Source: Agrocybe praecox (taxonomy: Eukaryota > Basidiomycota > Agaricomycetes > Agaricales > Agrocybaceae). Taken from it: 64,000 nucleotides of DNA. The stretch lies in NCBI GenBank assembly GCA_964017145.1, contig CAXHKQ010000064.1:1-64000 (forward strand), read 5' to 3'. Every line of letters begins with the position of its first letter. Position 1 is the stretch's first letter. Under the pieces are notes generated by a model. The model was not told where the DNA came from, searched no databases, and saw nothing but the letters and a program-made list of their open reading frames with translations. Positions 15,305 through 56,282 of this stretch are shown one piece after another. The translations under genes were made by a program, and so were the position numbers.

Positions 15305-15312
15305 TGGTGCCT

Positions 15313-16404: not shown

Positions 16405-16912
16405 CTTGGTGCAGATAAAGTAGAGGCTCTCTGGTGTGTGTGTGAGAGAAGCTATCTACAAAAAGTGCCCTTGAGACTATACTAAGTAACTAAAAAAAGA
16501 CTATGTAATGGATACCCAGTTGTCACCCCAAACACAGTGGGTCTAAACCTAGGATCACAGGATTGACTACCTGGTATTTTCCTAGACCACCAAAGACAGA
16601 AACAGTTGGCCTGATTCTGCCCCAACAGTTGGTATCCCTATCTACAAGTTCACACACAACACACAGCAGAGAGTGAGAAATCCAGTAGAAAGAGAGGTGT
16701 CTTGAGGAGATGTTGAAATTGTGGAGGGAGAGATGATGTAGAAGATTGGGAGGATATTGGAGGTTGAAGGGTTGATGATGATGAGAAAAATGATATATGT
16801 GGTAAGGGAATGTGTGGGTAAATGTTGGAAAGAGAGATGAATAGATTGGTGTAGATAAATGTGAGATGATGGATACTGAGTGGTGGGGTTGTCTGAGATA
16901 GCTTCAATCTTC
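16405..16912 (-). promoter_or_regulatory. Gypsy-1 leader with putative self-priming primer-binding site
   Basis: Minus-strand leader between the 5' LTR and gag. Two bases inside the LTR border lies AGATTGAAGCT (16910-16900 on the minus strand). Its reverse complement AGCTTCAATCT lies in the LTR at 17053-17043, about 34 bases downstream of a TATATATA box, where transcription would be expected to start. This is the arrangement of the fission yeast Tf1 element, in which the first 11 bases of the mRNA fold back and prime minus-strand synthesis. No tRNA-type TGG primer site is seen next to the LTR. Confidence 0.7.
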
Positions 16913-17326
16913 TGTCAGGGCAACACTAAGATCAGTGTGACAAGGCCACCAACAAAGACAAAGCAAGAGAGAGAGAGAGATGAAGAGAGAGAGACACTCA
17001 ATGGTTCCAAGAGATCACACCAATGATAGTGGATATCCTAAGAGATTGAAGCTGGGGCTACAGCTACATACATGTCCAGTATATATACCCTACAGCTATT
17101 CTAGAATATTCCTCCATGACATCATAAAGAAAGTAAAAGAATGATGTGGAATGATGGAGAATGGATGAGGCTATGCTCATGGGAAATTAAAGTGATAAGT
17201 ATCTAATCAAATGATAATCAAGAGATAATCAAAGATATGAAACAGATAAGATATCTACACATCTACAAAAGGGAAAAATGCGAAATAAATATAGAAAAAT
17301 AAAGAAAAATAGGAGAAACCCTGACA
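16913..17326 (-). repeat. Gypsy-1 5' LTR with TATA box
   Basis: 414 bp LTR with TG...CA ends. On the minus strand GGGTATATATACTGG (about 17091-17077) is the likely TATA box, followed after about 26 bases by AGCTTCAATCTCTTAGG, the probable 5' end of the transcript. A (CT)n tract lies near the 3' side of the LTR. A diverged, truncated relative lies at 63141-63509. Confidence 0.93.
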
Positions 17327-37686: not shown

Positions 37687-38147
37687 TGTTGAAATTAGTG
37701 ATCAAACACTTTGAATTGGACTTGTATATATGGACTTTTACATAGATTTCGGTGTTTTTCCCTGTTTTTGGACAGTATTTCATAAATAGTTATTCATAGA
37801 GTACAGCTATGGACGAGATCTCTTCGGATTCGGAATCTCCTCAACGAGACGAATCCGGCAGTATATAATATGTAGCGTAAAACTTTGTTTGGTGCACCAC
37901 TGATTTCGAACGCAATATTGTGGGCACCTATATTCACACTTAGGGATTTTTGGGGTAAATAGGAACAAACAAAGCAGTATTCCTACTATGTCTGGGGAGT
38001 ACTCAAGACACTAGATTGGGATTTTGGTTATACAGAAGCAATATACTATTTTCATTAAGACTAGTCATTGTTGTGCATTTGAGACTTGACCTTACTGTTG
38101 ACTATAAGTCTATTGACTATTGGTTACACTATTGTCAATTTCTAACA
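37687..38147 (+). repeat. Copia 5' LTR
   Basis: 461 bp, TG...CA. A probable TATA box is AGTATATAATATG (about 37860-37872). Just before it lies an imperfect palindrome, TTCGGATTCGGAATC with CGAGACGAATCCGGC, that could bind a regulator. Confidence 0.95.
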
Positions 38148-38159
38148 GGTTATGGGCCC
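38148..38159 (+). promoter_or_regulatory. Copia primer-binding site for initiator tRNA-Met fragment
   Basis: GGTTATGGGCCC directly follows the 5' LTR. Its reverse complement GGGCCCATAACC is the anticodon arm of eukaryotic initiator tRNA-Met (from memory). Copia of Drosophila primes from a cleaved half of this tRNA in the same way. The 3' end of the tRNA is not matched. Confidence 0.8.
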
Positions 38160-38265
38160 CGGCTTATAAACTTGGCTATACAATTGATTAAGTCTATTGC
38201 TGTCTGTTATTGAACTTGGGGAATTACAACTTGACTACAAAGTTGACTATTGATTTGGGATTACT

Positions 38266-41200
38266 ATGTCTACATCAGACAACAACACAGTTGCTAAAGT
38301 TAAGCCATTGTCTAATTCAAACTACACTGAATGGTGTGGTGAGATGAAGGCTTGGCTAATGCGAAATGGGCTATGGAGGCTAGTGGCTGGCAAGGAGACC
38401 AAGCCATCAGATTCAGATGCATTAAACAAATGGGAGATCAAGGCAGAGAGGGCAGCAGGAGAGATCTACCTATTGGTAGAAAGTGATCAGAGGGTACATT
38501 TCAGGGGGCATGAGGAGGATCCTATCAAAATGTGGTCATTGTTGGAAGCTGCACACTTATCAAAGAAACCTGGAGCAAGGTTCAATGCTTATGATGACCT
38601 GTTCTCTATCAGAAAACAGGATGATGAAACTTTGGTGGATTTGGGAACCAGGATAGAGAAAGCTATGCAGGCAATTCAAAACCTGCGTCCTACCGATTTC
38701 AAGATTGAGACGTTGGATGAAGAACTCCAATGCATGGCGCTTATACGTGCATTGCCCGAGGAGTACCGTCACCTTACAATGCCTCTCTTGTTGTTGGACA
38801 AACTGGACAAGTCAGTAATAATCCAGGCATTCCGAAGCGAGGAGTTGAATCGACAACGTCAAACTGGAGGAGAATCGCTCAATCAGGCCAAGGCAGGTGG
38901 TAATGGATATAGAGGGCAGAGGAAGCAGTGGAATTCGCAAAATGGGGGAAATAGGCCACAGGAGGATAGAGATACATGTCGCTACTGCAAGGAGAAAGGT
39001 CACTGGGCGCACAATTGCCCTGAGCTTGCAAAGAAGAAGCGTAACACAGAGAGTGCCAAAAAGGCAGATGAAGAGAAAGCTGCAGCAGTAACAGAATTTG
39101 CTGGCAAGGCAAGTGCTGTTGCTGAACACGAAGTCAATTCTACATCTTCTAATGTTTTTCATTGGAATACTGATACAGGTGCCACTTCTAATATGACCCC
39201 ACATAGAAATTGGATCCGCAATTATACCCCTTATCGTGTCCCCATTAGACTAGCGGATCATAGAGTCATATATTCAGAAGGTGTTGGTACTGTTGTGTTT
39301 AGACCCATGGTTAGAGGCAAACAATTTAGAGATGTAGAATTCACTAGAGTACTTCACGTTCCCGCGCTTCGTAATAATCTTCTTGCTGTTTTATATTTGA
39401 CAAAGAATAAGGGCATAGATGTACATATTTCACAAGATAAATTCGCTTTTTCACAACACAAGAAACTCCTATTTACTGCTACTATTGATAATGATAATAT
39501 TGGGTATTTAGATGGTTCAACAGTAGATATAATGGAGAATGTACATTTGGCTTCAACGCTGCCTCTTGATTTGTCTCTTTGGCATAAACAGTTAGGACAC
39601 CACAACTATGATGGGATTAAGTTGATGATGAAGAATAATCTAGTTGATGGTTTGACTATTGATTCAAAGGCAAAGCCAGATCCTATTTGTGAGCCATGTC
39701 TAGCAGGCAAGATGCATGCAAACCCATTCCCGTCATCAGAAAACAGAGCTACAGATGTATTGGAATTGATTCATTCAGATGTACATGATGTTGGTGTCAT
39801 CTCACATGGTGGATATCGTTATTGGGTGTCGTTTATAGATGATTGTGGGCGCTTTAAAGTCTATGTTCCTATGAAGAAGAAGAGCGACACATTTGAAGCA
39901 TTCAAGTCATTCAAAGCTTATGCAGAGAATCAGACGGGAAAGAAAATCAAACGATTCCGAGACGACAAAGGTGGTGAATATATGTCTAATGAATTCAAGG
40001 CTTATCTGGATGAATGTGGAATTGTGCGGGAGCATACTTGCAGGAACAGACCTCAACAGAATGGTGTAGCTGAACGTGCAAATTGCACTATTGCTGAAAG
40101 GATCGTAGCACTGCTGGAAGAATCAGGTCTGTCCAAGAAATTTTGGGCTGAGTGTTTGGCTGCACTTGTACATGTCTTGAATCGTTGTCCCACATCTGCT
40201 GTTATTGGAAAGACCCCATATGAAGTCTGGCATAAAAAGCGACCTAATGTTAGCCATTTGCGTGTTTGGGGTTGTGTTGCCTATGTTCACATTCAGAAGG
40301 ATAAACGAGGGCACTTGGGTTCACATATGGAGAAATGCATTTTTATTGGATATCCAGATGGTTACAAGGGCTGGAAGTTTTATAACCCTGAAACTAAGAA
40401 GGTCATCATTTGCGAACGAGCTGACTTTGATGAACGGTACACTTATGGAGGCGAATTGATGACATCCAATAACCATGATCATACGGAAGCTGAACCAGTG
40501 CCAGTACCAGGAAATGTGAACATAGAGGAGGATGATGAACCAGCACCTGAACCACAGTTACAGGATGCACCTCCTGATGTTGTAGAGCCCAAACACGAAA
40601 TTGGAGACCAGAATGCTTTGGAACCAGCTATTGAAAGTGACGATGAAGACGAACCAAGAGAGGATGTAACACCAGAACCAACCAAGCCAGAGGGATTGCG
40701 TCGCTCTACGCGCATCAGAAAACCACCAGGAGAATGGTGGGTTGTCAGAAAGCCAATGCCAGCTGTTCCAGACTATGATTTTGAGGAGGAGGATGACGAT
40801 GAAACTGAAGCAGCTAATGTTGTGGGTGGATCTCCTGACCCGCAGACATACTCGGAAGCAATGAAAAGCGAACAGGCACAGCAATGGCATGAAGCAATGA
40901 TGGAGGAAATGAACTGGCATTTAGAAAACAAGACTTGGGAGGCTGTGGAGTTACCGGAAGGGCAGAAAGCAATTGGGTCAAAATGGGTCTTCAAAACAAA
41001 ATATAATGCAGATGGGACAATTGAACGGTTCAAAGCACGTGTGGTTGCTAAGGGTTTTAACCAGCGACCTGGTCAGGATTACTTTGAGACATTTGCATCA
41101 ACTATGCGACAGGCAACTGTGCGCATTGTATTGGCATTGGCTGCAATTGAAGATTTAGAACTCCGTTCAGTGGACATTTCATATGCGTTCACAAACAGCG

Positions 41201-44200
41201 ATATTGACGTTGAGATCTATATGCAGCCACCAGCAGGATTTGTGCAAGGTCAACAAAAGGTAGTCTTTCGACTTAACAAGTCCCTTTATGGGTTAAAGCA
41301 GTCATCACGGTTATGGAGTGAAACACTTGGAAAGGTCTTGATTGAACTGGGGTTCAAAAAGACATATAGTGATTCATCACTCTATATCTATGACCGAGAT
41401 AATATCAAAGTCATTATGCCTGTGTTTGTGGATGATATTACTCTTGCTTCAAAATCAAAGGATGCTCTTGACAAATTTGTTGTCGAACTTGGAAAGCACT
41501 TCAAATTGCGGGATTGTGACGGGATAGTATCATATAAGCGTCCGCGGTATCTTGTTTCTTGTCGCACTATTTTATTTTCGAATCTCGCACGCGCCGTTCT
41601 TATCTTATCTCATCCCCACGGCCCGTGCTCGCTTAATGTATTATTAGATAATAATGTTTACTAGTACTTATAACGTTCGGTAGCACTAGTTATAATACAT
41701 CTTTACTTCTTGCCGACTCCTCTGCGATCCCTGAAGGCTCAGAGAGTCGTACTCTACCCTCGCCGGCTGAGCACCCAGTCATCTGCTCTCCCGCTCGGGG
41801 TGACAGAGCCTCTAGCTGAAGAGTCACAACAGCCTGACCGTGACGTTCCAACGAACGTCACGCTCATACACACCTTACTCTCAACTTCTCCCATCGCGCA
41901 CCTCGATGCCTCGAAGTCCCGAACGGCCTAGCGTCACAATGGTGGGGGCACCGCGGACTTCAATCCCTGCATTGAAGGTGCTCTTTTCTCGCAACGAAAA
42001 ACGGGACGACCAACCGACGAACGATTTGACGGACCAAGGTTAAGGAACGAGGGGAATCGGTTGACAGCACTTTCGAGTTGCGTCAACCGTGCCTATCCGA
42101 GCATATGAAACGTAGCCGGTTGCGCCTTCGGGCTGCACTGTCTTAGTTTCGTACTCTCTCGGACCCTTTTCCGGGCCTTGGAATTCAGGGAGTGATTCAG
42201 AACGAGCCACAGTGGATAGCGCCTTCGGGCAGCATCTGCTTAAACTCGTTCGAAATTCGAAGATATAAGGTCTGCTGCGCCTATGGTAGCGCAGGCCGAA
42301 AATCTTCGAACCTTCAAGGATATAAGGTCTGCTGCGCCCATGGCAGCGCAGGCCGAAATTCTTTGAACCCTCAACTCCCTCTCGAAAACTCACGTCGAAG
42401 GAACTCGCGAAAACCCCCTGCTATTTCAATTCACTTCCATTTCTATTCGTATAGCATGTCTACCCCCTTTCCTTCTACCGATGCGCTTCGCTGGACGATC
42501 CGATCGTAGGAAAATTATTATTATTCCAACCCGTCTATTCAGTCTACTGCTCGTTCTAACGACTTGGCGATATCTCTCGGGGTTATGGAAAATTTCTAAG
42601 GGCCTTATCACGTACAAAAACCTCCATACACTCGCACACTCTTGCTTCACTCTCGTCGTTTCAACCTTCCTATATTCCCCCCCGGGCGTATGGCATCCTC
42701 GAGGAACTCCAATCGAGGTTCCACCAACGGAACCAATCCTAGTCGTGGAAGGAATACGATTAATTCGCGTTCGACTACCCCGGGAGTAGAGTTACCTGCT
42801 CCCGCTGCCAGAAGAACCAACAACTCCAGACGAAGAGTCACCATAGAGGAAGGGCCCCCTGACCCTCAGACGGTTGGAGAAACTCTACCGTTAGAAGCGG
42901 GAGCTCCGGTTCTTGACCTTGCTGAATCGGTTGCTACTAGCGCCAGAAGCGAGGGAGCTGGCGCTCCTAGCTCGACGAATGGATCCTCGGTGGGTGGAGA
43001 CGAAAGCTTTCGTTCTGCCTCGGCTACTCCGTCACTCTCTTCCTTGTTTGGAACCCATAGCACCAATGGATCGGATAACACCATCAATGCGAAACGCGAC
43101 AAAAGGGAAGATGAATATCCGCGAATATTCCACGGTATACCAGTAGCGGGCGAACTCCCGCTATTCCACGAACCTCTGCATACTTCCTTACTAAAGTATC
43201 ATGCTCCTTTCGATCCCTTGGTCGATCGTGATCCTCTCGAAGAGTTCGGAGCCTCGGATGGCGCGCTCATTGGAAGACCTGCGGAGGAAGCTATATTGCT
43301 AAGGGACGTTATCCTTAGGTGGACCGCCCCGCATCTAGCCTGCTTCTGGGAGAATTTACCTCAAGCCATACAGTCGTTCGTCAAATCTCAAATTAGGATT
43401 ACCGACTTAATTTCGTATGACCTAACTACGGAGGAAACCTTCTACGCGTTACCCAAGGAACGACTGCATGAAATTGGGCAGATTCTCCTAGCTCTTTCTC
43501 AAATATTGGAATCTTTGGCGGACTTCTTCTATCGCGGAAAACGCTCTTCGTTTACCGTGGACTCAAATTACTCCTTACTTCGTATGCTGGCCTGGCACGG
43601 AAACCCTTCGGAAATCGTGCTGACAGTGCCGGTTTTGCAACGACGATGTGAAATTGCCGTATCACACGTTACTCAATACTTCAATAAGCTCCGGAAGCTA
43701 TTCTCGGATAATGATGAAGTCGTGTCGGTAGCCTCCTACCATTCCTCCAACCCTTCGGAACGATCAATAATTGCTCAATCCTCTCCAAGGACCGTCCTAG
43801 CTCGTCTAGCAGCTCGAGACGATTATCCGTCAGGATTTAGCAGGGATAATTTGGCTACGCGACATTCTCTAATTAAGGAATTCGAAGAGAAAGGATCCAA
43901 ACCGTTGCCTACCTCCCCATTCGTCTATCGAGCCCATGTCGACTCCTCCTTGCCTAAACCACGCAATGAACCTGCGCCGAACGAAGCGGTCAACAACTCC
44001 ATCAGTTCGTTCTTGACGAATAGGAGACCCACTGCGAACGCCGAAAGGGTGGTCCCTATGCCCGAGTCGATATCTGCAATCCCCAGCCGTCATGCTATAT
44101 CGTCTTTACCAGGTGTGGGCCGCTTCGATTCTAACGTCAATTCAATGGAAACTGGGGGGCCATTCGTGACGCGTAGAGGGATTCTGAACACGACCCCTAA

Positions 44201-47200
44201 TGCCGTATCGAATCCTCCTGTTAGCGGATGGACTAGCTATCAGTTCAAGAACTCTCCGGGCTCTACCGACTCCAGCATCGCCAATTCTAAGGAGACAGAA
44301 ACCAAGGATAAACCGAGCTTCAACGGACCGCCGGGGGGGCCTGGGGATCCCTCAGGAGACCCCAATGGCCCTGGTGGAGGACCGAACGGACCACCTGGAT
44401 GGCCACCCGGTTACACAGGCTGGCCAGGGTATAATCTTGGTCGAGGCGGTGGAGGCGGTGGTGGAGGTGGTGGAGGCGGTGGTGGAGGTCCTCCTCCTGT
44501 CGGAGCTGCAGCTGCCTTACCCGCAGCTGACGAAGAATGGCAGATGAATCCAAAAATTAATCTATCTAATCTACCAACTTGGAACGGAAAGAACGACACT
44601 CTCATCGAATATCTCAGTGAGATGGGTGGCTTTGCTAAGCTTGGTCAAAGGATGAAAAGAGGAATAGGTCAATTAGCCACTTTCAAATGGTCTGGCCCAG
44701 CAAAGTTATGGTGGGATACGCTACCCCTCCCAGACTCCGAAGCGCTAATATGTTGCATGTCGATTGGGAACCAGACCAGGAAGCGGAATGGGATAGAGAG
44801 TATCTAGCTATGATTGTAGAGCAAAATCAGAATGATCTTTCTGCTTATGATTCGAGTGATCCCGCTGAGGCTACTTATAAGGAAGCTCTCAATATAACCA
44901 AGGAATTACCTGCTCAAGTCAAAGCTACCCTTTTACCTCGTCGGATACGACGAGCCAACACTCGAGCTATTCCGAAAAAGGATCTATCATCTAGCGATGT
45001 CTCCGGTTCCGAGAGTGCCTCCTCCGAACGAATAGTCAAGGTTAAGAGAGGTCGAGCCCTTCCTGAGGGTATGGGATCTCTCGGCGCCAGAGCATTACAT
45101 ATTAAAGCTCGAGTACATTCCATCGAGAACACGTCGGTGCAAACACGCCTAGATTCGGGGGCTGACATCACGCTAATGTCTGAAGAATTTTACAAATCGA
45201 TTCCTGACCTTCCTCGCATTAAAGAAGGATTAAGAATGAAACTCTACCATCTTACGGGTAATGCTAAAGTCCTTGGCTATGTTCGCACCTCTCTAATTAC
45301 ATCAGCGGAGGATGGTACCGTTCTGCAATTCGACTTAGAGGCGTACATTGTTAGGGATATGAGAGTGCCCTTGCTCATAGGAGAGGACTTTCAAACGACT
45401 TATGAACTTGGCCTACGAAGATACGCTACTGGTCAGAGCGAAGTCTTAGTAGGAAGGGATGCGCTATACACGATACAAGCTTCTTCCGCGCAGAGCGTAG
45501 ACTTGGGTTTCGAAATTCGACAGGCCTTCACCTCTCAATCTTTCGTGAGGTCTCGAGCAGTTAGACGAGCAAGAGCTAAGGCACGACAATCGGATAAGGA
45601 TGCCCCAGTAGTTGCGGCTCAGGACGTCTGTATTGCCGCTGGTTCCGTCCATAACATTAAGGTGCAAGCTCCTTTCGGAGATGAGCGTGAATGGATAGTG
45701 GAAAAGGTCGTTATTGGAACCGATACTGCGGATATATTAGCTGCTCCAACGACGTGGATTAATTCTGCTTGCCCATACTTGCCCATTGCGAATCCCACTC
45801 CCAGACCGATTTACATACGAATGGGGGACGTAGTCGGACACTTGCTCGATCCCATGGCCTTAAACAAGTCAGACAGCCCTGAGGCGACGAAGATGTCCGC
45901 AGCGGCCGATGCGATCAGAGCCGTTATAACTGGTACCCTCAGAAATCAGGATCTAGGAGCTGCAACCACCATACGAGAACCAAGTGACGACAAATTAGAG
46001 CAGGATGAATCGTGGGGACCTAAAACCACCACCGTGGCTATCGACGACGTTCATGGAGACGTATCGACCTTGGTAAACCTAGGACCTGATATTCCCGAGG
46101 AATATCGAACCAGACTAGCTTCCGTACTGAAGAAGAACGAGCGAGCGTTTGGAGTCAACGGACGACTGGGGCAAGTCGAAGCCCGTGTTGAAGTTCCTCT
46201 GAAACCTGGTACTCAACCCATTTTCGTTCCTATGTACGGCGCTTCGCCTGCGAAACGTGAAGTAATCGATAAGCAAATTAATGCTTGGTTCGAAGCTGGG
46301 GTGATTGAGCCGTCCGTTAGCCCTTGGGGATTTCCTGTGGTAGTCGTCTACAGAAACGGCAAACCTCGTTTGGTAGTCGATTACCGAAAGTTAAACACTC
46401 ATACTATACCGGACGAGTTCCCTATTCCCCGCCAGTCTGAAATCATTCAAGCTCTATCCGGCTCTCAAGTACTGTCCTCTTTCGATGCGTTATCAGGTTT
46501 TACTCAACTCGAAATGGCGGACAAGGATAAAGAAAAAACAGCTTTTCGTTGTCATCTGGGCTTATGGCAATTCAAGCGTATGCCTTTCGGGTTGCGTAAC
46601 GGCCCATCCATCTTCCAACGCATCATGCAAGGAGTTCTCTCGCCCTTCTTATGGCTTTTCGCCTTGGTCTATATCGATGATATCGTAGTATTCTCAAGGA
46701 ACTGGGAAGAACACTTGATCCACTTGGATAAAGTGCTTAGTGCTATCGCTTCGTCCGGAATCACTCTCTCACCTCCCAAATGTTTCGTAGGCTATTCTTC
46801 TATCTTGTTACTCGGCCAAAAGGTATCTCGTTTGGGTCTCTCTACTCATGCCGAGAAAGTTGCGGCTATCCAGGAGTTAGCTCGTCCACACAATGTTCAC
46901 GATTTGCAGAAATTTTTAGGCATGGTCGTCTATTTCTCTCAGTATATTCCCTTCTACTCCTTCATTGCCTCACCTCTATTCGCGCTACTGAAGAAAGGAG
47001 TACGTTGGCACTGGGGTGCAGAACATGAAACGGCCTGGGCGAGCGCAAAGGCTGCTCTGGCTTCTGCTCCAGTCCTAGGTCATCCTGTTCAAGGGGTTCC
47101 ATATCGTCTTTATACCGACGCATCAGATTTTGCTCTAGGTGCTAGTTTGCAACAAGTGCAGCCTATTCTCGTTCGAGATCTGAAGGGCACTTCAACGTAT

Positions 47201-50200
47201 GAACGTTTGCGTAAAGCTTGGGAGGCTCAAGACCCGGTCCCTTCTCTGTTTCCTATCCTCATCAAGGATGTAGTAGAACGTTGTTCCTCGGACGATTGGG
47301 CGGATTCCCTGGATGACACGACTGTTCACGTCGAACGAGTCATCGCTTATTGGAGTCGTTCTCTTAAGCCCGCTGAACGTAACTACAGCGCGACTGAACG
47401 GGAGGCTCTTGGCGCGAAGGAAGCCTTGGTTAAATTCCAACCTTTTATTGAAGGCGAAATTATAACCCTGGTCACCGATCACGCTGCTCTTCAGTGGGCT
47501 CGCGTCTATGAGAATGCTAACCGGCGCCTAGCGGCGTGGGGGGCGGTATTCGCTGCATATCCTGGTCTACGAATAGTGCATCGACCGGGTCGAGTACATT
47601 CTAACGTGGACCCGTTGTCCCGAATGCCTCGAGTGCCGCCGCATAGTTCTCCGATCAGAGACGATCTTGTCACCATTACTCCCACTGAAGAAAAGCGGGA
47701 ATTAGCTCAATTAGCGGAGGATAAAGGAACTTACAGCCCGGCCAACAGAGCAGCGTTTTCAGTATGCTGGTGGGAAGAAGTAGTAGAGAAATCTGCCTAT
47801 CCGGTTATGACTAGGAGACAGCGAGCCGAATTGGAAGCAGTAACCTCAAACCCTACGCAAGATATTAAGGACGATTCTGAGAGTCCCACGGAAAGTCAGA
47901 GCTTGGATCTTCCTTTCGAAAACGAAGATCACTGGACGTATCCTGTCGGAACGAAGCCAGTTGTCGATAATCTAGAAGAGAATTGGGATAATCGTACCCA
48001 CTTGCTCATTTCTATGAAACCCTCGATTATTAAATCATTTGTGGAAGGATACAAGACTGATCCATTTTTCAATAAACGATACGTTGACGAACAACCCAAT
48101 CCTCAGACGGTTCTTACTCCCTCGCATTTTCGTAAAGGGGCAGACGGCTTGCTCTACTTTCTAGACGCTGATTGGAATGCTAAGCTCTGTGTTCCTCGTT
48201 CACAAGTCAACTTCGTCTTAAAATGGATACACGATTCGCCATTCGAAAGTGCACACGCGGGTTACAAACGCTTCTCTGCCAGACTTTTAGAGGTGTTCTA
48301 CTGGAACACAATGATTAAAGACGCGTCTATCTTCTGTTCCACCTGCGATGTGTGTCAAAAGATCAAAGCTGATCACCGCAAAGGAGTTGGTGCTCTCCGA
48401 CCAGCTCATATTCCTGCTCGACCATTCGCTACTGTCTCACTGGACCTAATCACTGGGCTACCACCTTCAGGAGAAGCCAAATATACTGCGGTTCTGGTTA
48501 TAGTTGATAAACTAACCAAGTTCGCCATCATTGTACCCACGCATGATACTCTGGATCGCGAAGGATTCGCTAAAATATTTGTGGAAAGAGTGGCGAACAT
48601 ATTCGGTCTACCTGAAAGAATAATCGCGGATCGTGACAAAAGGTGGTCAACGGATTTCTGGAAGTCAGTAGTATCAAGTTACGGAGGAGTCATGGCTCTG
48701 TCTTCTTCGCATCACCCTCAAACTGATGGTCAAACGGAAATCCTGAATGCTAACATTGAACAAATGCTTAGAGCATACGTAGCTGGAAACCGCAAGAGCT
48801 GGGCAGAATGGTTAAGCGTACTAGCTTTCTCCTATAATTCGGCGGTCCATTCATCCACCTCATATTCTCCAAACTTTCTACTGTTGGGATATAATCCCAG
48901 ACTATCCACTAGCTCGATACTAAAGGAAGTGGACCCTTCCAACCGACCTTTCCTCCCAAGTCAGAGAGCCGAAGAATTCATTCGTTCCATCGAGGAAGTT
49001 CGGACCCTGGCGAGGAACTCTTTGGTTTTGGCCCAAGAAAAGCAAGCTAAAGCGTACAACAAGGGACGTAGACCGGTTGATGATATTCGTGTAGGAGACC
49101 TCGTCCTCGTGAATCCCCATACTCTCAAACTTGTAGACGCTAAGGGGACTGGGAAGAAGCTGGTGCAAAGAACTATCGGGCCTTTTGAAGTGCTGGAGAA
49201 GATCAACCCTGTGGTTTTCCGGCTGAGGCTACCTGACTCTTACCCTATGCATCCAGTGTTTAATGTTAGTCATCTGAAGAAGTACTACCCCTCGCCCAAA
49301 GAGTTAGGAGAAAGGGAAATATTGCCATCCACTCGAGAGTTCTTAGGGTCACCGGAATACGAAGTAGAAGCTATACTTGGCCACAAGCTCACTAACAGAA
49401 AGACGGGAAATCGTAGGATGTATCGAGTTCGATGGACTGGATATGGCCCCGCTGACGATTCCTGGGTATCCGAATACGACTTACGAAACTCCCCAGAACT
49501 ACGACGAGAATATCTATCTCTCCATAACCTCAATTAAATAAGGATCCTACACCACTCTGCAAATCTTCAGCCCTCAACAACGAGATATCATTCCCAATTT
49601 TCGTCTTATCCGCAAACACTATTAATGAACCTTACCTTTCTATTTTTGCTACCTTTTCTAAAATTAACTTTCAAGTATATTAGTTAAGTAGATAGTCGAC
49701 TACGTATTACTTAATCATTTCCACGGGATCGGATGTTCGAAACCGATCCTTTTCTTTTAGATACATACCATCTTCTGCCATTCATTTTTATCTTGGTGAT
49801 TCAGACTTGGTTGCGCTTCGAGCTGCGCCTGCGCGAATCATCCTCGAGAGATACCCGCCTATTCCGATTCCTTCTTTCCCCTCTTGGTGATTCAGACTTG
49901 GTTGCGCCTCGAGCTGCGCCTGCGCGAATCATCCTTGAGAAAATTGTCGTCTACTCCGAACCTCCCTGCTCATCTCGCTGATTCAAACACGGTTGCGCCT
50001 TGAGCTGCGCCTGCGCGAATCACTCTCGAGAATCAGTCGGTGGAGTCGTCTACCGTGATCCAGCATTCAATATCGAGGTCTTGCCGTGAGCCGCATCAGC
50101 TAAAGCCCGGGGACGCGAAACTAGAGGAAGAACACTTTATCCTACTGCAATTTCCAGGATGAGTCCCATGAAATTGTTTTCAGTGGATCGTTTAGAGAGT

Positions 50201-53200
50201 TTCGCCGGATATGCGCTCAAACCCTCGATCCAGGACGCCATGTTGTTCTTTCTCCCTCCCTTCCGTCTCATGACTACGCGCGTAGTGAATTCCTTCTCCA
50301 GCATGTGGGAACTATGGTCCCCGAACTCTACGCGAAGTGAATATTATCCGGGTGTCAGGGACAAAGAGGTCAAATTAGGATTGAGGTTACCTCTTAGTTC
50401 GAGGAGATACGACGGACACCTCGGACGGTTTGACCCCACCATCTCTCCTCAGCATTACGACTCGAACGAACCATGGCTCCCTTTCATATTGCGCGATTCG
50501 GGCGGGAACAGACCCGAACACGTTCCGCTCATCAGAGTTTGGAGATCGGAGGGAAACACGGCGAAGGGAAGTATTCAATGGTCACACATACAGGCTCTGG
50601 AAAAGCGTGTCGTGTACCTCTTCAACATGATGGATAGTTGGGCTGCGATGGAGCAGATACAGCCTGATCATTGGAGGAATAGGCCGATGAGCCCCACTCT
50701 GGCGGACCTGAAAGGACTATCGGGAACTATTGGCTTTGAAGAGGCTATGGACTGTTACGCTCACTTTCAGCGAGGCATCAAACGAATGTCTGCTTGGGGA
50801 CGTTATGCCGCAGCGGTAGTAAACGATGGGGAAACGTCACTCGGACCCCCTCACGAAGTCGTTGCCGCGGATGATCAACTCATTGGATTATGGCTCAACG
50901 GAACGGACGAAACTACGGGGTTATGGTATTTGAAACATCGAGTGCCGGGCTATATTATTCATGAACACGATTCTCTTACCTCGAGAGCGAAAGTGTCGCC
51001 CCGAATTCTACGATGTCGTAGCTTCGTCGAGGGTACTCCTGCCTTGCGGGAAGTAATGGCGCCGGATCATGTCGACCATCTCGTGTTCTCGTCTGGGCAC
51101 AATCTAGGCAAATTACAGCAGGATTTGGGCGTGGCCACTGAAGCCAAGATCGAACGCTACATGAGAACGGATCGTCTGCGCTCTTCCCCGGTCGCTCAAG
51201 GATGGGACAAGGACCATTACGTTGACCCTCGCGCTCCGGTCAAGCTGGATTTACCCCCTGCTGCTACCTCTCTATTGCCTCCGCCGGTGGTCATGATACA
51301 AAAGAATCTGTCCTGGAGCAATTGGACGGAGGAGACTGATTCGGAAGGGAAATCCTATCTGTTACGGCATGGCAAGAATTATTCAATCGAGCCCCATTAC
51401 AGAACATACTATGATCGCATTAACGCCAGACGTCTGCATGTGGAGGATAGGATCTCTGTTCCTGCGGGATACAAAGCGAATCCAAAGATATTTGGGCTAC
51501 CGGCTCCGCGTATGGATTTCTTCGAACGGGTTAATAATCAGGATCTGCTTCCGAGAATGGCCTCTTCCTGGATTTATTTGGATGAGCGCCCCTCGATCAA
51601 GGACGAAGGAAGGATCTTCGATCCTGAAGCAGTCGGAGATCGCGAATTGACTTACGACGATAGGATGGAGTACAGCGACGCTGAGAGTGAAGTGGACTTG
51701 GGCAGTAGTAGCTCAAGATCTTCCTACCAGCCAGCTGAAGGAAAAAAGCGAAAGGAGTCTCCGATGCAGTTAGATGAGAGGCACTCGACAATACAAGGCA
51801 ACATAGGCGGGCATGCCGTACCTGTGGCATCGTCGTCGCGCCGACAAATCTCCCCGCCTCGTCAACCTCGTTGGAACAGGAGTTTCGGTGCTCGGGATTC
51901 GGGTAGGAGGCCTACGCAATTAGCTCCTTCGGTCCTTCGCAGTACAGACTTGAGAAGACCTCCCGGATTGACTTCGTTGGGTTCGAAGAGAGATCGTTCC
52001 CCTTTTTCTCGACGTTCTCGCTCTCGATCGCCTCGTTGGTCTCGAAGAGCCTACTCCCCGAGTCAAGGAGTCATCTCTGCGCCTCGGCGAAGTTCACCTA
52101 GGCTACCCCCGCGCTCCCCTAGTCGTCGCCTCAAAGCCCGTTCTCGGTCTCAATCATTCGACAGAAACTATCGATCGGTCAATTCGCGCTACGTTACTCC
52201 CCCCTCTCGGCGCCCTGTATCACGACGACGCTCCCGATCAGCGACGCCTGCTAGGACTCGCTCGCGCTCCCATTCGAGGGAACTTCCCCGTCGTTCTCCG
52301 TCTCCTCCCATGCCTACTGCCACTATCTCTTCATCGGAGTCCGCTGCTGTCACTATGCCTCCTACTTTGCTCTCGCGACTCGTTGGACCGGTCGTAGCGT
52401 CTGTTCCTCCCGGTACCCCTATCCAATCCCCTCCAAGCTCAATAATAGTCCGTTACGATCCAGCTGTCGCTGCTGCCGGGACTGGATCTCTGCTGGTCCC
52501 TGTTCCCGCGTCTTCATCTCTTTCGAATTTGTTCCCTGTACCGGCTCAATCAACTGTCCCTGTTCTTACGACTATCAACGTTCAAGGCTTTACGCGCTTC
52601 CTTATCATCTGGAATCTCCCTGTATATCACACATGGGAGCAGGTAGTCGATTGGGTTGCTAGTGTGCTCGCGATGATGCCTGGCGTTAAGGTCAAACGTT
52701 TGATACGCACCAATGAGGTGGGACAACAAGTTTTTTGGCTGTCTTTCAACCATGCTCGCCAAGCGGCTACGTTTCGTGGCCTGGTCGAAAATCGTCAGAC
52801 TTCAGGAGGGACTGTTATCCGTTGTGACTTCGTATCCACCCAGGAATGGTGTGCGGCAACAGGGTCCGGAGTGGTTAATTCTTGGAGTCCAGATACTGGC
52901 TACTCGAGTGGATTGCTTGGATCTTCACCCTTGTCAACGAATGAAGTGGTGCGTCAGCCGACCCTTTCGCTTGCCCAACGTCTTGGAATCGTTGCTCCCC
53001 CCTCTCGACCCCCTCGAACTAAGCGAAGAAGACGTGCTTTGTACCAAAATTCTGCGGACGGGGGGGCTCTGTGACGGGATAGTATCATATAAGCGTCCGC
53101 GGTATCTTGTTTCTTGTCGCACTATTTTATTTTCGAATCTCGCACGCGCCGTTCTTATCTTATCTCATCCCCACGGCCCGTGCTCGCTTAATGTATTATT

Positions 53201-54386
53201 AGATAATAATGTTTACTAGTACTTATAACGTTCGGTAGCACTAGTTATAATACATCTTTACTTCTTGCCGACTCCTCTGCGATCCCTGAAGGCTCAGAGA
53301 GTCGTACTCTACCCTCGCCGGCTGAGCACCCAGTCATCTGCTCTCCCGCTCGGGGTGACAGAGCCTCTAGCTGAAGAGTCACAACAGCCTGACCGTGACG
53401 TTCCAACGAACGTCACGCTCATACACACCTTACTCTCAACTTCTCCCATCGCGCACCTCGATGCCTCGAAGTCCCGAACGGCCTAGCGTCACAGGGATCT
53501 AGGTGAAACCAACTATCTATTGGGTGTTGAAATCACAAGAGACAGAGCAAATCGGAAATTGTATTTGTCTCAGCGCCAGTATATTATCAACAAATTGGAG
53601 GAATTCAACATGTCAGATTGCAAACCTGTTGGCACACCTATGATCCCAGGATTAAAGTTGACGTCAGAGCAATGTCCCAAGACAATTGAAGAGAAAAGCA
53701 AAATGAGTGTCATTCCTTACATTTCTGCCGTTGGATCTCTTATGTATCTGGCCATGATGACCAGACTGGACATTGCATTTGTGGTGGCATTATTAGCCCG
53801 GTTCAATCACAATCCTGGTGAAGAACATTGGAAAGCGGTCAAGCACTTGTTCAGATATTTGAAGGGCACATTGGATATAAAGCTGGAATATGGACCAGAC
53901 CCAACAATTGGCGATGAATTATTTGTGACGTACAGTGATGCCAACCATGGAGGAAATAAGGATAATGGAAAGTCAACAAGTGGCTATATGGTGAAGATTG
54001 GGAAAGGAGCAGTAGCGTGGAGGAGCAAACTACAACCTGTAGTGACAAGGTCAACAACGGAGGCAGAGTTTATTGCAGCTGGAGCAGCAGGGATGGAAAT
54101 ACGTTGGATACAGAACATTCTCAAGGAACTTGGATATACACCAATCGCACCAGCCAAACTATATATGGACAATCAATCATCTATGTCTGTGGCGAAGAAT
54201 CCGGAACATCATGGGAAGATGAAGCACTTGGACTTGTGTTTCTACTGGTTGAGGGATCAGGTGGAGATGAAGAGGATTCAACCAATATACATTCCGACAG
54301 AAGACATGCCAGCCGATTTATTAACAAAAGCACTGCCAAAGCCGCAGGTTGAAAAGTTGAGAAAGATGATGGGGTTAGTGGAGTAG
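38266..54386 (+). CDS. gag-pol: Copia gag-pol polyprotein (interrupted at 41514/53499 by Gypsy-2)
   Basis: Single polyprotein, 38266-41514 plus 53499-54386 = 1,378 aa. Gag: LSNSNYTEWCGEMKAWL and a UBN2-like core, CCHC knuckle CRYCKEKGHWAHNC (about residues 238-251). Protease: WNTDTGATSNMT. Integrase: zinc-binding HKQLGHHNYDG..CEPCLAGK, core Asp in HSDVHD and in RFRDDKGGEYMS, QQNGVAERANCTIAERIV. An acidic linker, then RT: SKWVFKTKYNADGTIERFKAR, DISYAFTNSDI, SLYGLKQSSRLW, FVDDI. RNase H: YSDANHGGNKDNGKSTSGY, TTEAEFIAAG, DNQSSM. The second Asp of the FVDD box and the rest are normal. All domains expected for Ty1/copia are present in order. Start: first ATG after the primer site. Confidence 0.95.
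41515..41938 (+). repeat. Gypsy-2 5' LTR
   Basis: 424 bp, TG...CA ends, matching 53070-53493. It carries an inverted GTGACGTTCCAACGAACGTCAC (about 41839-41860), a near perfect palindrome that may be a regulatory site. No consensus TATA; AGTTATAATACATC at about 41687-41700 is a weak candidate. Confidence 0.95.
41939..42689 (+). promoter_or_regulatory. Gypsy-2 primer site and gag leader with hairpin duplicates
   Basis: TGGTGGGGGCACCGCGG starts one base after the LTR and fits a primer site pairing with a tRNA ending ...CCCCCACCA; I cannot name the tRNA. The leader is about 750 bp. It contains two tandem copies (about 42257-42308 and 42318-42367) of GATATAAGGTCTGCTGCGCC...GCGCAGGCCGAAA. Each folds with the stem CTGCGC/GCGCAG and a differing loop, a candidate packaging or translation signal. 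CGCCTTCGGGC occurs twice upstream. Confidence 0.7.
42690..44807 (+). CDS. gag: Gypsy-2 gag, apparently lacking its C-terminus
   Basis: The start is taken at ATG 42690 (MASSRNSNRG) rather than an upstream in-frame ATG at 42642. About 705 aa: a long Ser/Thr-rich head, a helical domain (about residues 150-370), a Gly/Pro-rich stretch with a run of about 15 Gly (about 592-606), then a capsid-type motif LPTWNGKND..LIEYLSEM..FKWSGPAKLWWDTLPL. In related proteins this motif is followed by about 150 more capsid residues and a zinc knuckle or basic tail. Here the frame ends 30 residues later in non-matching sequence, overlapping pol. I infer a deletion that fused the capsid middle to the pol start, so the copy may need gag from a relative. 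Confidence 0.8.
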   Translation: MASSRNSNRGSTNGTNPSRGRNTINSRSTTPGVELPAPAARRTNNSRRRVTIEEGPPDPQTVGETLPLEAGAPVLDLAESVATSARSEGAGAPSSTNGSSVGGDESFRSASATPSLSSLFGTHSTNGSDNTINAKRDKREDEYPRIFHGIPVAGELPLFHEPLHTSLLKYHAPFDPLVDRDPLEEFGASDGALIGRPAEEAILLRDVILRWTAPHLACFWENLPQAIQSFVKSQIRITDLISYDLTTEETFYALPKERLHEIGQILLALSQILESLADFFYRGKRSSFTVDSNYSLLRMLAWHGNPSEIVLTVPVLQRRCEIAVSHVTQYFNKLRKLFSDNDEVVSVASYHSSNPSERSIIAQSSPRTVLARLAARDDYPSGFSRDNLATRHSLIKEFEEKGSKPLPTSPFVYRAHVDSSLPKPRNEPAPNEAVNNSISSFLTNRRPTANAERVVPMPESISAIPSRHAISSLPGVGRFDSNVNSMETGGPFVTRRGILNTTPNAVSNPPVSGWTSYQFKNSPGSTDSSIANSKETETKDKPSFNGPPGGPGDPSGDPNGPGGGPNGPPGWPPGYTGWPGYNLGRGGGGGGGGGGGGGGGPPPVGAAAALPAADEEWQMNPKINLSNLPTWNGKNDTLIEYLSEMGGFAKLGQRMKRGIGQLATFKWSGPAKLWWDTLPLPDSEALICCMSIGNQTRKRNGIESI
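44687..49537 (+). CDS. pol: Gypsy-2 pol with chromodomain
   Basis: Open frame of 1,616 codons in the -1 frame relative to gag; the true start is unclear because the gag C-terminus is missing. Domains: a linker starting at WEPDQEAEWDREYL; protease TRLDSGADITLMSE (about 45145); RT with WGFPVVVVYRNGKPRLVVDYR, SSFDALSGFTQLEM, FGLRNGPSIFQ, catalytic YIDD (about 46670); RNase H with YTDASDFALGASL and TDHAALQWA; integrase finger (HAGYKR..CSTCDVCQ); core LDLITGLPPSG, IADRDKRW, HPQTDGQTEILN; and a C-terminal chromodomain (YEVEAILGHKL..YRVRWTGYGPADDSWVSEYDL). All catalytic residues that I can identify are present. It ends in TAA 160 codons after the integrase core module GPFEVLEKI. Confidence 0.94.
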   Translation: MVWPSKVMVGYATPPRLRSANMLHVDWEPDQEAEWDREYLAMIVEQNQNDLSAYDSSDPAEATYKEALNITKELPAQVKATLLPRRIRRANTRAIPKKDLSSSDVSGSESASSERIVKVKRGRALPEGMGSLGARALHIKARVHSIENTSVQTRLDSGADITLMSEEFYKSIPDLPRIKEGLRMKLYHLTGNAKVLGYVRTSLITSAEDGTVLQFDLEAYIVRDMRVPLLIGEDFQTTYELGLRRYATGQSEVLVGRDALYTIQASSAQSVDLGFEIRQAFTSQSFVRSRAVRRARAKARQSDKDAPVVAAQDVCIAAGSVHNIKVQAPFGDEREWIVEKVVIGTDTADILAAPTTWINSACPYLPIANPTPRPIYIRMGDVVGHLLDPMALNKSDSPEATKMSAAADAIRAVITGTLRNQDLGAATTIREPSDDKLEQDESWGPKTTTVAIDDVHGDVSTLVNLGPDIPEEYRTRLASVLKKNERAFGVNGRLGQVEARVEVPLKPGTQPIFVPMYGASPAKREVIDKQINAWFEAGVIEPSVSPWGFPVVVVYRNGKPRLVVDYRKLNTHTIPDEFPIPRQSEIIQALSGSQVLSSFDALSGFTQLEMADKDKEKTAFRCHLGLWQFKRMPFGLRNGPSIFQRIMQGVLSPFLWLFALVYIDDIVVFSRNWEEHLIHLDKVLSAIASSGITLSPPKCFVGYSSILLLGQKVSRLGLSTHAEKVAAIQELARPHNVHDLQKFLGMVVYFSQYIPFYSFIASPLFALLKKGVRWHWGAEHETAWASAKAALASAPVLGHPVQGVPYRLYTDASDFALGASLQQVQPILVRDLKGTSTYERLRKAWEAQDPVPSLFPILIKDVVERCSSDDWADSLDDTTVHVERVIAYWSRSLKPAERNYSATEREALGAKEALVKFQPFIEGEIITLVTDHAALQWARVYENANRRLAAWGAVFAAYPGLRIVHRPGRVHSNVDPLSRMPRVPPHSSPIRDDLVTITPTEEKRELAQLAEDKGTYSPANRAAFSVCWWEEVVEKSAYPVMTRRQRAELEAVTSNPTQDIKDDSESPTESQSLDLPFENEDHWTYPVGTKPVVDNLEENWDNRTHLLISMKPSIIKSFVEGYKTDPFFNKRYVDEQPNPQTVLTPSHFRKGADGLLYFLDADWNAKLCVPRSQVNFVLKWIHDSPFESAHAGYKRFSARLLEVFYWNTMIKDASIFCSTCDVCQKIKADHRKGVGALRPAHIPARPFATVSLDLITGLPPSGEAKYTAVLVIVDKLTKFAIIVPTHDTLDREGFAKIFVERVANIFGLPERIIADRDKRWSTDFWKSVVSSYGGVMALSSSHHPQTDGQTEILNANIEQMLRAYVAGNRKSWAEWLSVLAFSYNSAVHSSTSYSPNFLLLGYNPRLSTSSILKEVDPSNRPFLPSQRAEEFIRSIEEVRTLARNSLVLAQEKQAKAYNKGRRPVDDIRVGDLVLVNPHTLKLVDAKGTGKKLVQRTIGPFEVLEKINPVVFRLRLPDSYPMHPVFNVSHLKKYYPSPKELGEREILPSTREFLGSPEYEVEAILGHKLTNRKTGNRRMYRVRWTGYGPADDSWVSEYDLRNSPELRREYLSLHNLN
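49538..50158 (+). promoter_or_regulatory. Gypsy-2 pol-ORF3 spacer with a 91 bp triple repeat
   Basis: Three tandem units of about 91 bp (starting about 49791, 49882 and 49973) share TGATTCAGACTTGGTTGCGC, TCGAGCTGCGCCTGCGCGAATC and CTCGAGA. Each unit holds a GATTC...GAATC inverted pair and a GC-rich stem. The position just before ORF3 suggests a promoter, splice/translation signal or RNA export element for ORF3. This is inference. About 120 bp of unique sequence separates the repeats from the ORF3 ATG. Confidence 0.65.
50159..53074 (+). CDS. Gypsy-2 ORF3: RS-rich, RRM-like protein of unknown function
   Basis: 971 aa, uninterrupted. Residues about 1-490 are globular and not recognised (landmarks GLWYLKHRVPGYIIHEHD and WSNWTEETDSEGK). 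An acidic patch follows near 500-515 (DDRMEYSDAESEVDL). Residues about 605-720 are an arginine-serine domain (SRRSRSRSPRWSRR, TRSRSHSREL). After a Pro/Ser/Val linker, about 809-895 looks like an RRM: FLIIWNLP as RNP2, QQVFWLSF as RNP1-like, and GGTVIRCDFVS as the last strand. The tail PPRTKRRRRALY is a likely nuclear signal. The final codons pass through the polypurine tract ACGGGGGGGCTC and the TGA (53072-53074) lies inside the 3' LTR, so the ORF is a native part of the element. It is not an env: I see no signal peptide or clear membrane span. Confidence 0.85.
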   Translation: MSPMKLFSVDRLESFAGYALKPSIQDAMLFFLPPFRLMTTRVVNSFSSMWELWSPNSTRSEYYPGVRDKEVKLGLRLPLSSRRYDGHLGRFDPTISPQHYDSNEPWLPFILRDSGGNRPEHVPLIRVWRSEGNTAKGSIQWSHIQALEKRVVYLFNMMDSWAAMEQIQPDHWRNRPMSPTLADLKGLSGTIGFEEAMDCYAHFQRGIKRMSAWGRYAAAVVNDGETSLGPPHEVVAADDQLIGLWLNGTDETTGLWYLKHRVPGYIIHEHDSLTSRAKVSPRILRCRSFVEGTPALREVMAPDHVDHLVFSSGHNLGKLQQDLGVATEAKIERYMRTDRLRSSPVAQGWDKDHYVDPRAPVKLDLPPAATSLLPPPVVMIQKNLSWSNWTEETDSEGKSYLLRHGKNYSIEPHYRTYYDRINARRLHVEDRISVPAGYKANPKIFGLPAPRMDFFERVNNQDLLPRMASSWIYLDERPSIKDEGRIFDPEAVGDRELTYDDRMEYSDAESEVDLGSSSSRSSYQPAEGKKRKESPMQLDERHSTIQGNIGGHAVPVASSSRRQISPPRQPRWNRSFGARDSGRRPTQLAPSVLRSTDLRRPPGLTSLGSKRDRSPFSRRSRSRSPRWSRRAYSPSQGVISAPRRSSPRLPPRSPSRRLKARSRSQSFDRNYRSVNSRYVTPPSRRPVSRRRSRSATPARTRSRSHSRELPRRSPSPPMPTATISSSESAAVTMPPTLLSRLVGPVVASVPPGTPIQSPPSSIIVRYDPAVAAAGTGSLLVPVPASSSLSNLFPVPAQSTVPVLTTINVQGFTRFLIIWNLPVYHTWEQVVDWVASVLAMMPGVKVKRLIRTNEVGQQVFWLSFNHARQAATFRGLVENRQTSGGTVIRCDFVSTQEWCAATGSGVVNSWSPDTGYSSGLLGSSPLSTNEVVRQPTLSLAQRLGIVAPPSRPPRTKRRRRALYQNSADGGAL
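53070..53493 (+). repeat. Gypsy-2 3' LTR
   Basis: 424 bp copy of the 5' LTR; its first five bases TGTGA contain the ORF3 stop codon. Polypurine tract GGGGGGG just before it (53060-53066). Followed by the GGGAT duplication. Confidence 0.95.
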
Positions 54387-54473
54387 TGAGGAGATGTATC
54401 ATCAGGGGGTTGTTTTGGAAGTGATGGGACATCTCTGGTTGCCAAATTGTCAAAGTGTTTTCTCAGGGGGTTG

Positions 54474-54934
54474 TGTTGAAATTAGTGATCAAACACTTTG
54501 AATTGGACTTGTATATATGGACTTTTACATAGATTTCGGTGTTTTTCCCTGTTTTTGGACAGTATTTCATAAATAGTTATTCATAGAGTACAGCTATGGA
54601 CGAGATCTCTTCGGATTCGGAATCTCCTCAACGAGACGAATCCGGCAGTATATAATATGTAGCGTAAAACTTTGTTTGGTGCACCACTGATTTCGAACGC
54701 AATATTGTGGGCACCTATATTCACACTTAGGGATTTTTGGGGTAAATAGGAACAAACAAAGCAGTATTCCTACTATGTCTGGGGAGTACTCAAGACACTA
54801 GATTGGGATTTTGGTTATACAGAAGCAATATACTATTTTCATTAAGACTAGTCATTGTTGTGCATTTGAGACTTGACCTTACTGTTGACTATAAGTCTAT
54901 TGACTATTGGTTACACTATTGTCAATTTCTAACA
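54474..54934 (+). repeat. Copia 3' LTR
   Basis: 461 bp copy of 37687-38147, preceded by a purine tract CAGGGGGTTG (54464-54473). A second CAGGGGGTTG at 54402-54411 may be a spare or central tract. Confidence 0.95.
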
Positions 54935-54959
54935 GACATATGTACATGGTCAATAAACT

Positions 54960-55202
54960 AATTATTGTACAAATCCTATCTTTTTCTTTTCTTTTCTTCT
55001 TTTCTTCTTTTCTTCTTTTTATCTTTTTATCTTTCTATCTTTTCTTTCTTTCTTTCTTTCTTTCCTTTCTTCTTTTTATCTTTCTATCTTTTCTTTCCTT
55101 CTTTCTTTCTTTTCTTCTTTCTATCTTTCTATCTTTTCTTTCTTTTCTTCTTTTTATCTTTCTATCTTTTTATTTTTTCTTTCTTTCTTTCTTTTCTTCA
55201 GG
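54960..55202 (+). repeat. TTTCTT pyrimidine tract, inner left arm of D
   Basis: About 240 bp of (TTTCTT)n/(CTTTTTAT)n on the plus strand. It mirrors the purine tract at 56283-56595, so it is the inner part of the D inverted repeat. ORFs here encode Phe/Ser/Leu runs and are not genes. Confidence 0.85.
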
Positions 55203-56282
55203 GTTATAGCTTATGTTTATGCTGTATGACATACATATGAGGTCTGTCAATAGTTCAAGAATAGTCTTGTATTTTTTAAAAGGGTGAAACCACAGCAAAT
55301 GTGCGCTTTTTCAGAGCATTTATAAATAGTACAGATTATTTTTTGAACATTATGTAAATGCACTGCAATCCCATTCATTTTTGACCTCTTTATGCAGTGG
55401 ATAAGTAGTGGTAAATGTATAGAATACTATATCAGCATTTTATTTGATAAAAAAGGGTCCATAATAGAGTGAAACAGACATTTGATGCGCTTTTTGTACC
55501 TATTTATAAATAGGTCAGATTATTTTTGAACATTATCCAGATGCACTTTTCTGCATCCATCCCTTCCTGTTACATTTTTGCATTTTTGAGTACACCATAA
55601 ATCCCCATAAATGTATAGAATGCTATATCCACCTTTTGTTTTGTCAAAAAGCACCCAGAACATAGCAAACTGGACAATATTCAGTAAAAACCGCTTTTTT
55701 AGGGAATTAGTCATGTGAGACAGATGCCACAGCCACAGATATGATAAGATATGATAAGATAGGTTGTCACAGCCACAGATAGAATAAGATATGATATAAT
55801 AAGATTACACAGCCACATAAGATAAGATATAGATTATATAGCCACATGTCCGATAAGATAGCTTTGCACTGCCACATTTCAGATAAGATAAGATAGCACA
55901 GCCACAAATACAAAAATTATATGGTTGTGTAGAGAAAAAATCAGGCATCAACGTAAATATTTTTTATTACATAACCATCAATGGATCAGCTGCAAAATGC
56001 AAAATACTTTTTAAACCTTGTGTATAAATCAAAATAAAAGATTGAAATATTCATAGCAAGCCCAAAAAAAAATCTAAAATCATGGAAAAATGTGTGCTAT
56101 ACTATTTTGGGTATGGTCTATCCAAATATATAAAGTGTTCTAAAAATAGATCCAAACCAAAAATAGACATATCTAAAATAGAACCAGCAAAAACAAACAT
56201 GTGTTTGAGTTTGATGTTATCAACAGTAGACATATCATCTGACACTCAGGAAGTGCTGACATATAATCACAGATATTTTAAC
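55203..56282. other. D unique interior, non-coding
   Basis: Contains TTTATAAATAG..GATTATTTTTGAACATTAT modules at about 55310 and 55500, the GATAAGATA/GCCACA tandem repeat at 55720-55910, and at 55950-56160 a segment also found reversed in Y (29390-29610). No transposase. These shared blocks tie D, Y and the 21.0-22.2 kb fragment into one loose family. Confidence 0.7.

Follow-up and report, generated by a model that had tools for sequence, protein, structure and literature searches.

A third gene encoding a protein with an arginine-serine tract and a predicted RNA recognition motif in a young family of chromodomain Gypsy retrotransposons of Agrocybe praecox

Gag and pol are commonly regarded as sufficient for long terminal repeat (LTR) retrotransposons, and the route by which unspliced RNA leaves the nucleus in elements that lack Rev is a largely open question. 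We analyzed a 64,000-nucleotide stretch of the basidiomycete Agrocybe praecox (GenBank assembly GCA_964017145.1, contig CAXHKQ010000064.1, positions 1 to 64,000, forward strand; hereafter the window), in which a Gypsy-type chromodomain element carries a third open reading frame, ORF3, for a protein with an arginine-serine (RS) tract and a predicted RNA recognition motif (RRM). A comparable situation has been described for the Caenorhabditis elegans Gypsy-type element Cer1, whose extra protein beyond Gag-Pol, CERV, is needed for export of the full-length RNA (PMC10309623; here and below a cited source stands for those passages of it that bear on the point). Cer1 has no stop between gag and pol, as in the fuller copies of the present element, and the nuclear role in full-length RNA export shown for CERV is the one we infer for ORF3 (PMC10309623). 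The two proteins nevertheless differ: CERV has exons in common with gag through splicing and is described in these passages as lacking a recognised RNA-binding motif and obvious homology beyond the nematodes (PMC10309623), whereas ORF3 has a frame of its own downstream of pol and combines an RS tract with a predicted RRM. Retroviral Rev likewise pairs an element protein with structured element RNA, as we propose here, but couples that RNA to CRM1 (PMC10309623). The likeness to CERV or Rev would be one of mode of working, and we claim no relation to either.

Extra frames located between pol and the 3′ LTR and kept across copies are also found in plant and rotifer LTR retrotransposons; in the relevant passages these are env-like, GDSL esterase, DEDDy exonuclease, coiled-coil or transmembrane frames, or antisense frames with SMC or transposase-like domains, with no combination of RS and RRM (PMC7264820, PMC5408684). 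Mobile elements with RNA-directed domains are represented by the C. elegans transposon Turmoil-1, which contains RRM coding sequence, though as a captured sequence within inverted repeats and without a gag-pol-ORF3 plan (PMC2572040), and by orchid Gypsy elements whose N6-methyladenosine demethylase domain is, by contrast, an enzyme domain (PMC9289625). Both extra post-pol frames and the capture of RNA-related domains are known already. Among the papers listed for searches of the open-licence PMC literature, we found no prior announcement of an RS/RRM frame in a Gypsy element, which is not proof of absence, and there is none in the term-matched passages of two fungal surveys (PMC3248453, PMC2864245).

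ORF3 occupies positions 50159–53074 on the plus strand, between pol and the 3′ LTR, and consists of 971 codons without an internal stop, as an earlier reading of the letters alone (the sequence-only reading) had stated. The LTRs of the element, which that reading called identical-looking, agree at 424 of 424 positions (41515–41938 and 53070–53493), and the whole element measures 11,979 bp (41515–53493, plus strand). It is flanked by a GGGAT target-site duplication, read directly on both sides (41510–41514, placed also by the LTR boundaries, and 53494–53498). The final codons of ORF3 (ADGGAL, stop) run through the polypurine tract (53056–53069, direct reading), which doubles as the codons for the C-terminal DGGAL, and the TGA stop (53072–53074) falls within the opening five bases of that LTR, the 3′ one.

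Searching this genome with ORF3 gave 15 matches representing 12 loci, the window copy counted, so that the presence of ORF3 in further copies, which the sequence-only reading had called for, is borne out. Four groups can be distinguished: A, with four loci at an identity of at least 99%; B, with three loci at about 75% and one broken locus in three pieces; C, with three loci at about 50% (49–50%); and D, a single locus in two pieces at about 41–44%. A Gypsy pol lies upstream in all 12 loci, broken in some, and ORF3 is open over its full length in 10 of them (A1–A4, B1–B3 and C1–C3), including copies whose gag-pol is broken. LTR pairs were found for nine loci (A1, A2 in part, A3, B1, B2, B3, C2, C3 and D) and are 99.75–100% identical, which indicates young insertions; none was seen for A4, C1 and B4 in the stretches examined. 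ORF3 also has 37 homologous proteins at E ≤ 0.001, to which a profile search added three; they include records from eight named mushroom species (Agrocybe pediades, Flammula alnicola, Gymnopilus dilepis, Galerina marginata, Pholiota molesta, Hypsizygus marmoreus, Mycena vitilis and Favolaschia claudopus). They are annotated as hypothetical or uncharacterized, apart from one proteophosphoglycan ppg4. These 37 homologues and the 12 loci show that the frame is not a product of chance, and ORF3 is a genuine third gene in a young family of chromodomain Gypsy elements. Eight of these 37 proteins have ADGGAL or TDGGAL as their last residues; since this peptide is the polypurine tract in the window element, they probably also abut a 3′ LTR.

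The ratios of non-synonymous to synonymous substitution (dN/dS; Nei-Gojobori, own scripts, loci C1 and B4 left out) lie far below 1 between families, and not near 1, the value that the sequence-only reading had set against its own proposal. For three A-B pairs, ORF3 as a whole gives 0.116–0.134, residues 1–490 give 0.068–0.077 and the RS tract 0.27–0.34, these ratios being approximate because dS is near or above 1; the RRM region (residues 791–905) gives 0.037 and 0.045, the third pair being saturated. The comparison within B (two pairs, dS 0.71–0.88) is safer and yields 0.14 for the whole, 0.083–0.085 for residues 1–490, 0.25 for the RS tract and 0.07 for the RRM. Within A the changes are few (synonymous/non-synonymous 5/6, 6/7 and 13/9; ratios 0.39, 0.38 and 0.23), C2 and C3 are so nearly identical (2 and 5 changes) as to be uninformative, and synonymous sites are saturated between A and C. 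For comparison, five pairs of fuller copies give 0.05–0.06 for protease-reverse transcriptase, 0.02–0.03 for RNase H-integrase-chromodomain and 0.12–0.15 for the N-terminal part of gag. These values indicate that ORF3 is under purifying selection, and that the RS- and RRM-containing protein is kept under selection close to that on reverse transcriptase.

The ORF3 protein can be divided into a folded N-terminal part, an RS tract, a predicted RRM and a basic tail. Residues 1–490 (50159–51628; dN/dS 0.07–0.09) are confidently modeled by AlphaFold (mean predicted local distance difference test score 91.5 over residues 1–498) and have no fold match in PDB or BFVD. The RS tract (residues 561–730, 51839–52348), predicted to be disordered from its composition and the AlphaFold model, contains 27 RS/SR dipeptides in its best 120 residues (594–713). 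The segment is 25% arginine and 22% serine, and its 28 RS/SR dipeptides compare with 19.3 ± 3.6 after shuffling within the segment, a count reached by 61 of 5000 shuffles; the signal is therefore mostly composition, with a modest part due to residue order. Residues ~801–914 (52559–52900) adopt a predicted beta-alpha-beta-beta-alpha-beta fold, assigned as an RRM from AlphaFold and Foldseek, with matches that include U1A and domains of RBM39 and SPF45. The RNP2- and RNP1-like strands lie inside this fold at residues 813–821 and 856–863, and position 5 of RNP1, which like position 2 of RNP2 is an aromatic RNA-contact site of RRMs, is W or Y in 26 of 26 alignment rows. Window ORF3 matches no Pfam family at E ≤ 10; across 38 members, only BRAP2, an RRM-like domain, matches at E ≤ 1, in two members (best E 0.024). 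The KRRRR motif at residues 955–959 (53021–53035) is a possible nuclear localisation signal. Both the RS domain and the RNP-like strands proposed from the letters alone are thus recovered, and the RRM fold, set beforehand as a test, is indeed predicted.

SR proteins are defined by an N-terminal RRM followed by an RS domain, the RS stretch having at least 50 residues and an RS content of about 40% or more. With 44% of its residues inside RS/SR dipeptides, the best 50-residue window of ORF3 has the composition of such a domain; its RS tract, however, precedes the RRM. The description of ORF3 as SR-protein-like consequently holds for an element-borne, conserved protein with an RS tract and a predicted RRM fold, and not in the strict sense, given the reversed order and the lack of a Pfam match. 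The host protein RBM39 also has its RS region before an RRM/UHM fold, and L1 ORF1p is a retroelement protein with an RRM, although it belongs to a non-LTR element, forms a trimeric coiled coil, is encoded first and has no RS tract. PGC-1alpha, again a host gene, shares with ORF3 an RS region placed before an RRM/UHM fold; its RS region binds RNA and NXF1, so that RS beside RRM can serve mRNA export (PMC10485026). ORF3 differs from these host proteins in having no RRM-profile match at the Pfam cut-off.

The element also carries repeated RNA stem-loops. Four long ones lie in the stretch of leader that separates the primer-binding region from gag, at 42098–42156, 42195–42251, 42252–42310 (folding z −2.21) and 42309–42368 (z −4.25), each identified by folding and covariation; three have a bulged core, GCGC-loop-GCNGC, and the fourth a one-base variant of it. 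Three simpler stem-loops precede ORF3 in a 91-bp tandem array, at 49791–49849 (z −0.54), 49882–49940 (z −1.42) and 49973–50031 (z +0.36). The core pattern occurs 14 times on both strands of the window against 2.76 expected (three in the leader, two in pol, six in the gap array counting both strands, and three elsewhere). As family A had been seen when the pattern was chosen, the numbers of matches in A and B are not independent; for families not used in choosing it, the C2 and C3 leaders have two matches each, with one each before ORF3, and the D leader has three, C and D having additionally one match each in pol. Covariation was assessed on nine of 16 distinct leader units, four from A, four from B1 and one from B2, without near-duplicates and without the units of C and D. 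Pairing is kept in 93.6% of cells, and 30 cells carry changes at both partners, compared with 11.4 in shuffled alignments (0 of 500); slid controls give no more than 43% paired cells and five of the doubly changed kind. A covariance model built from the leader units, R1, recovered the A and B leaders. On this evidence, the repeated stem-loops appear to covary before gag and to recur in a weaker form before ORF3.

The position, conservation and selection of ORF3 show that it serves the element, and its RS tract, RRM and basic tail together point to a nuclear RNA-binding protein. We therefore tentatively favor a role as a nuclear accessory factor that binds and handles the element's own RNA, above all in nuclear export. 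The protein would be nuclear, as its RS tract and KRRRR tail suggest; the predicted RRM would bind the element's own RNA, with the leader and gap stem-loops as proposed targets; the RS tract would recruit host RNA-export or messenger ribonucleoprotein factors; and full-length unspliced RNA would then exit the nucleus or pass to Gag. Our preference for the element's own RNA as substrate follows the precedents of CERV and PGC-1alpha, and export or packaging of this RNA by ORF3 is plausible. In a more elaborate and rather unlikely version, a Rev-like control system, the protein with its 490-residue unseen fold, RS tract and RRM would recognise the repeated bulged stem-loops before gag and ORF3 and so allow the element to govern by itself how its unspliced RNA is exported, translated or packaged.

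Several observations weigh against the favored role in handling the element's own RNA. On the protein side, all Foldseek E-values exceed 0.001 (best 0.0038), the full-length AlphaFold model has a predicted template-modeling score of 0.49, the RRM is carried by 26 of 38 alignment rows (several records being short), position 2 of RNP2 in the window protein is I816, which is not aromatic, and only 18 of 37 homologues have at least 10 RS/SR dipeptides in their best 120 residues. Regarding the RNA, leader covariation was counted on related repeats, with the structure itself taken from the alignment being assessed, and of five measures two give no clear result (both-side-changed pairs reached by 15 of 500 shuffles, further pair types by 339 of 500). 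R1 is weak beyond its training families, giving 0.016 for the C leaders (two near-identical copies, off the core pattern) and 0.1 and 0.4 at two of the core patterns of the D leader, and at E ≤ 1 retrieves none of the gap stem-loops. The latter do not exceed shuffled sequences in stability, their 13 distinct units covary weakly (three pairs changed on both sides, reached by 21 of 500 shuffles), and in family D the core pattern is absent ahead of ORF3. The Gag of the fuller copies already has a CCHC motif. Lastly, five leaders (A1, B1, B3, C2 and D) contain no GTRNGY splice donor from the primer-binding region up to gag, so that nothing points to an intron-retention problem of the kind faced by Cer1 or HIV; A1, B3, C2 and D have one match each, located within gag, and the 1100 nt scanned in B1 contain no match. 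An acceptor-like YCAG followed by G stands directly before the ORF3 ATG in A1–A4, B1, B3 and B4, and not in B2, C2, C3 and D. Splicing control, which the sequence-only reading had put forward among the possible roles, finds no support in these signals; ORF3 itself may be expressed from a separate promoter, by internal initiation or by unusual splicing.

Some of the same features can be read differently. The stem-loops might be unrelated to the ORF3 protein and act as translation-start or promoter elements, a doubtful but real possibility given their placement upstream of the gag start codon and, in groups A, B and C, of the ORF3 start codon as well; this would be compatible with the other readings, yet the pattern is missing before ORF3 in family D, and the protein is assigned no role. 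Packaging signals are usually located in leader RNA, and the structured leader, together with the basic tail and an RRM that neighbors a disordered tract of Arg and Ser, would suit a cytoplasmic ORF3 that coats or condenses element RNA and aids Gag assembly or reverse transcription in the manner of L1 ORF1p. We consider this packaging cofactor unlikely, as a CCHC motif is already present in the Gag of fuller copies and RS tracts occur more typically in proteins of the nucleus.

A role directed at the host, in which ORF3 alters host splicing or blocks silencing of element RNA, could draw on the RS tract and on the fold matches to U1A, RBM39 and SPF45, but such matches are common to RRMs in general, no host target is visible and the strong constraint on the 490-residue N-terminal part would be left unexplained, making this improbable. 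It is more improbable still that ORF3 tethers the pre-integration complex or guides target choice: the inferred nuclear features and the large conserved N-terminal part without a recognised fold would be consistent with a chromatin or integration cofactor, yet Pol already has a chromodomain and an RRM would be unnecessary. The interval between pol and the 3′ LTR is also the usual place of an env gene, and the C2 relative has a 19-residue hydrophobic stretch (mean 1.83, hydropathy only) near its N terminus. However, the highest 19-residue Kyte-Doolittle means of the window protein (1.24) and of B1 (1.38) are below the level of 1.6 usual for a transmembrane segment, and an RS tract and RRM do not fit an envelope-like protein, an assignment that we regard as barely conceivable.

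The remainder of the element is that of a chromovirus, with direct LTRs, a short target-site duplication and the order reverse transcriptase, RNase H, integrase, chromodomain. In pol (44687–49537, plus strand), Pfam places RVT_1, RNase H, Integrase_H2C2 and Chromo (5.6e-9) in this order, the protease (0.034) and rve (0.013) falling below their cut-offs. A conserved 25-nt block adjoining the 5′ LTR (41939–41963) is the presumed primer-binding region; it is the same in the leaders of B1, B2, C2 and D and differs at one base in B3. Gag and pol form a single open frame of 2538–2551 codons in five of the 12 loci (A3, B1, B2, B3 and C2). Compared with the copy on contig 5, the window copy is without 682 bp across the gag/pol junction, which shortens its gag part (42690–44807), and it is gag-defective though its ORF3 is open.

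The copies also differ in their histories and 3′ ends. Copy B3 (contig 8) resembles group A in the N-terminal part of gag (96%) and in its leader, and group B in ORF3, and is likely a recombinant element. In reverse transcriptase, D (90%) is closer to A than C is (87%), whereas in ORF3 D is more distant (41% versus 49–50%), reflecting either uneven evolution or an exchange of ORF3. In C3, the polypurine tract is longer by one G, which puts the final codons of ORF3 into another frame, showing that the C terminus depends on the length of this tract; B1–B3 have their own TAA stop 25 nt short of the LTR.

Other Gypsy elements of the genome offer further comparison. A plain element on the minus strand of the window (10114–17213; repeats at 10114 and 16913, pol at 11942–15304) belongs to an abundant family with about 36% reverse transcriptase identity and has no frame of at least 200 codons in its 1.5-kb interval between pol and LTR; a third gene is therefore not general in this genome. 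A sister lineage with 65–66% reverse transcriptase identity (C9:1223500–1230600, C8:1642700–1649700 and C93:23600–30600) has, in the same place, a different third frame of about 760–860 codons with a short RS-like stretch and no significant profile match to ORF3. Its homologues P0042 and P0043 of Gymnopilus dilepis have a precomputed Pfam assignment, PF28437, that was unmatched in our own Pfam scan. The sister-lineage stretches, which are without the leader, contain one match to the stem-loop core pattern, in pol.

The insertion site of the window element is a Copia element, interrupted into parts at 37687–41514 and 53499–54773, with identical 300-nt repeats at 37687 and 54474; the 5′ GGGAT lies within it. 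Pfam finds RVT_2 and copia gag in 38266–41661 and no family in the 3′ piece at 53520–54383. A long pyrimidine-rich array of CTTT-type repeats (54958–55210) adjoins the Copia LTR.

Together, ORF3 and the covarying leader stem-loops provide a concrete and testable case, outside animals, for the study of retrotransposon RNA export. The young copies with their near-identical LTRs would, in addition, contribute a protein family of which a large part gave no fold match.

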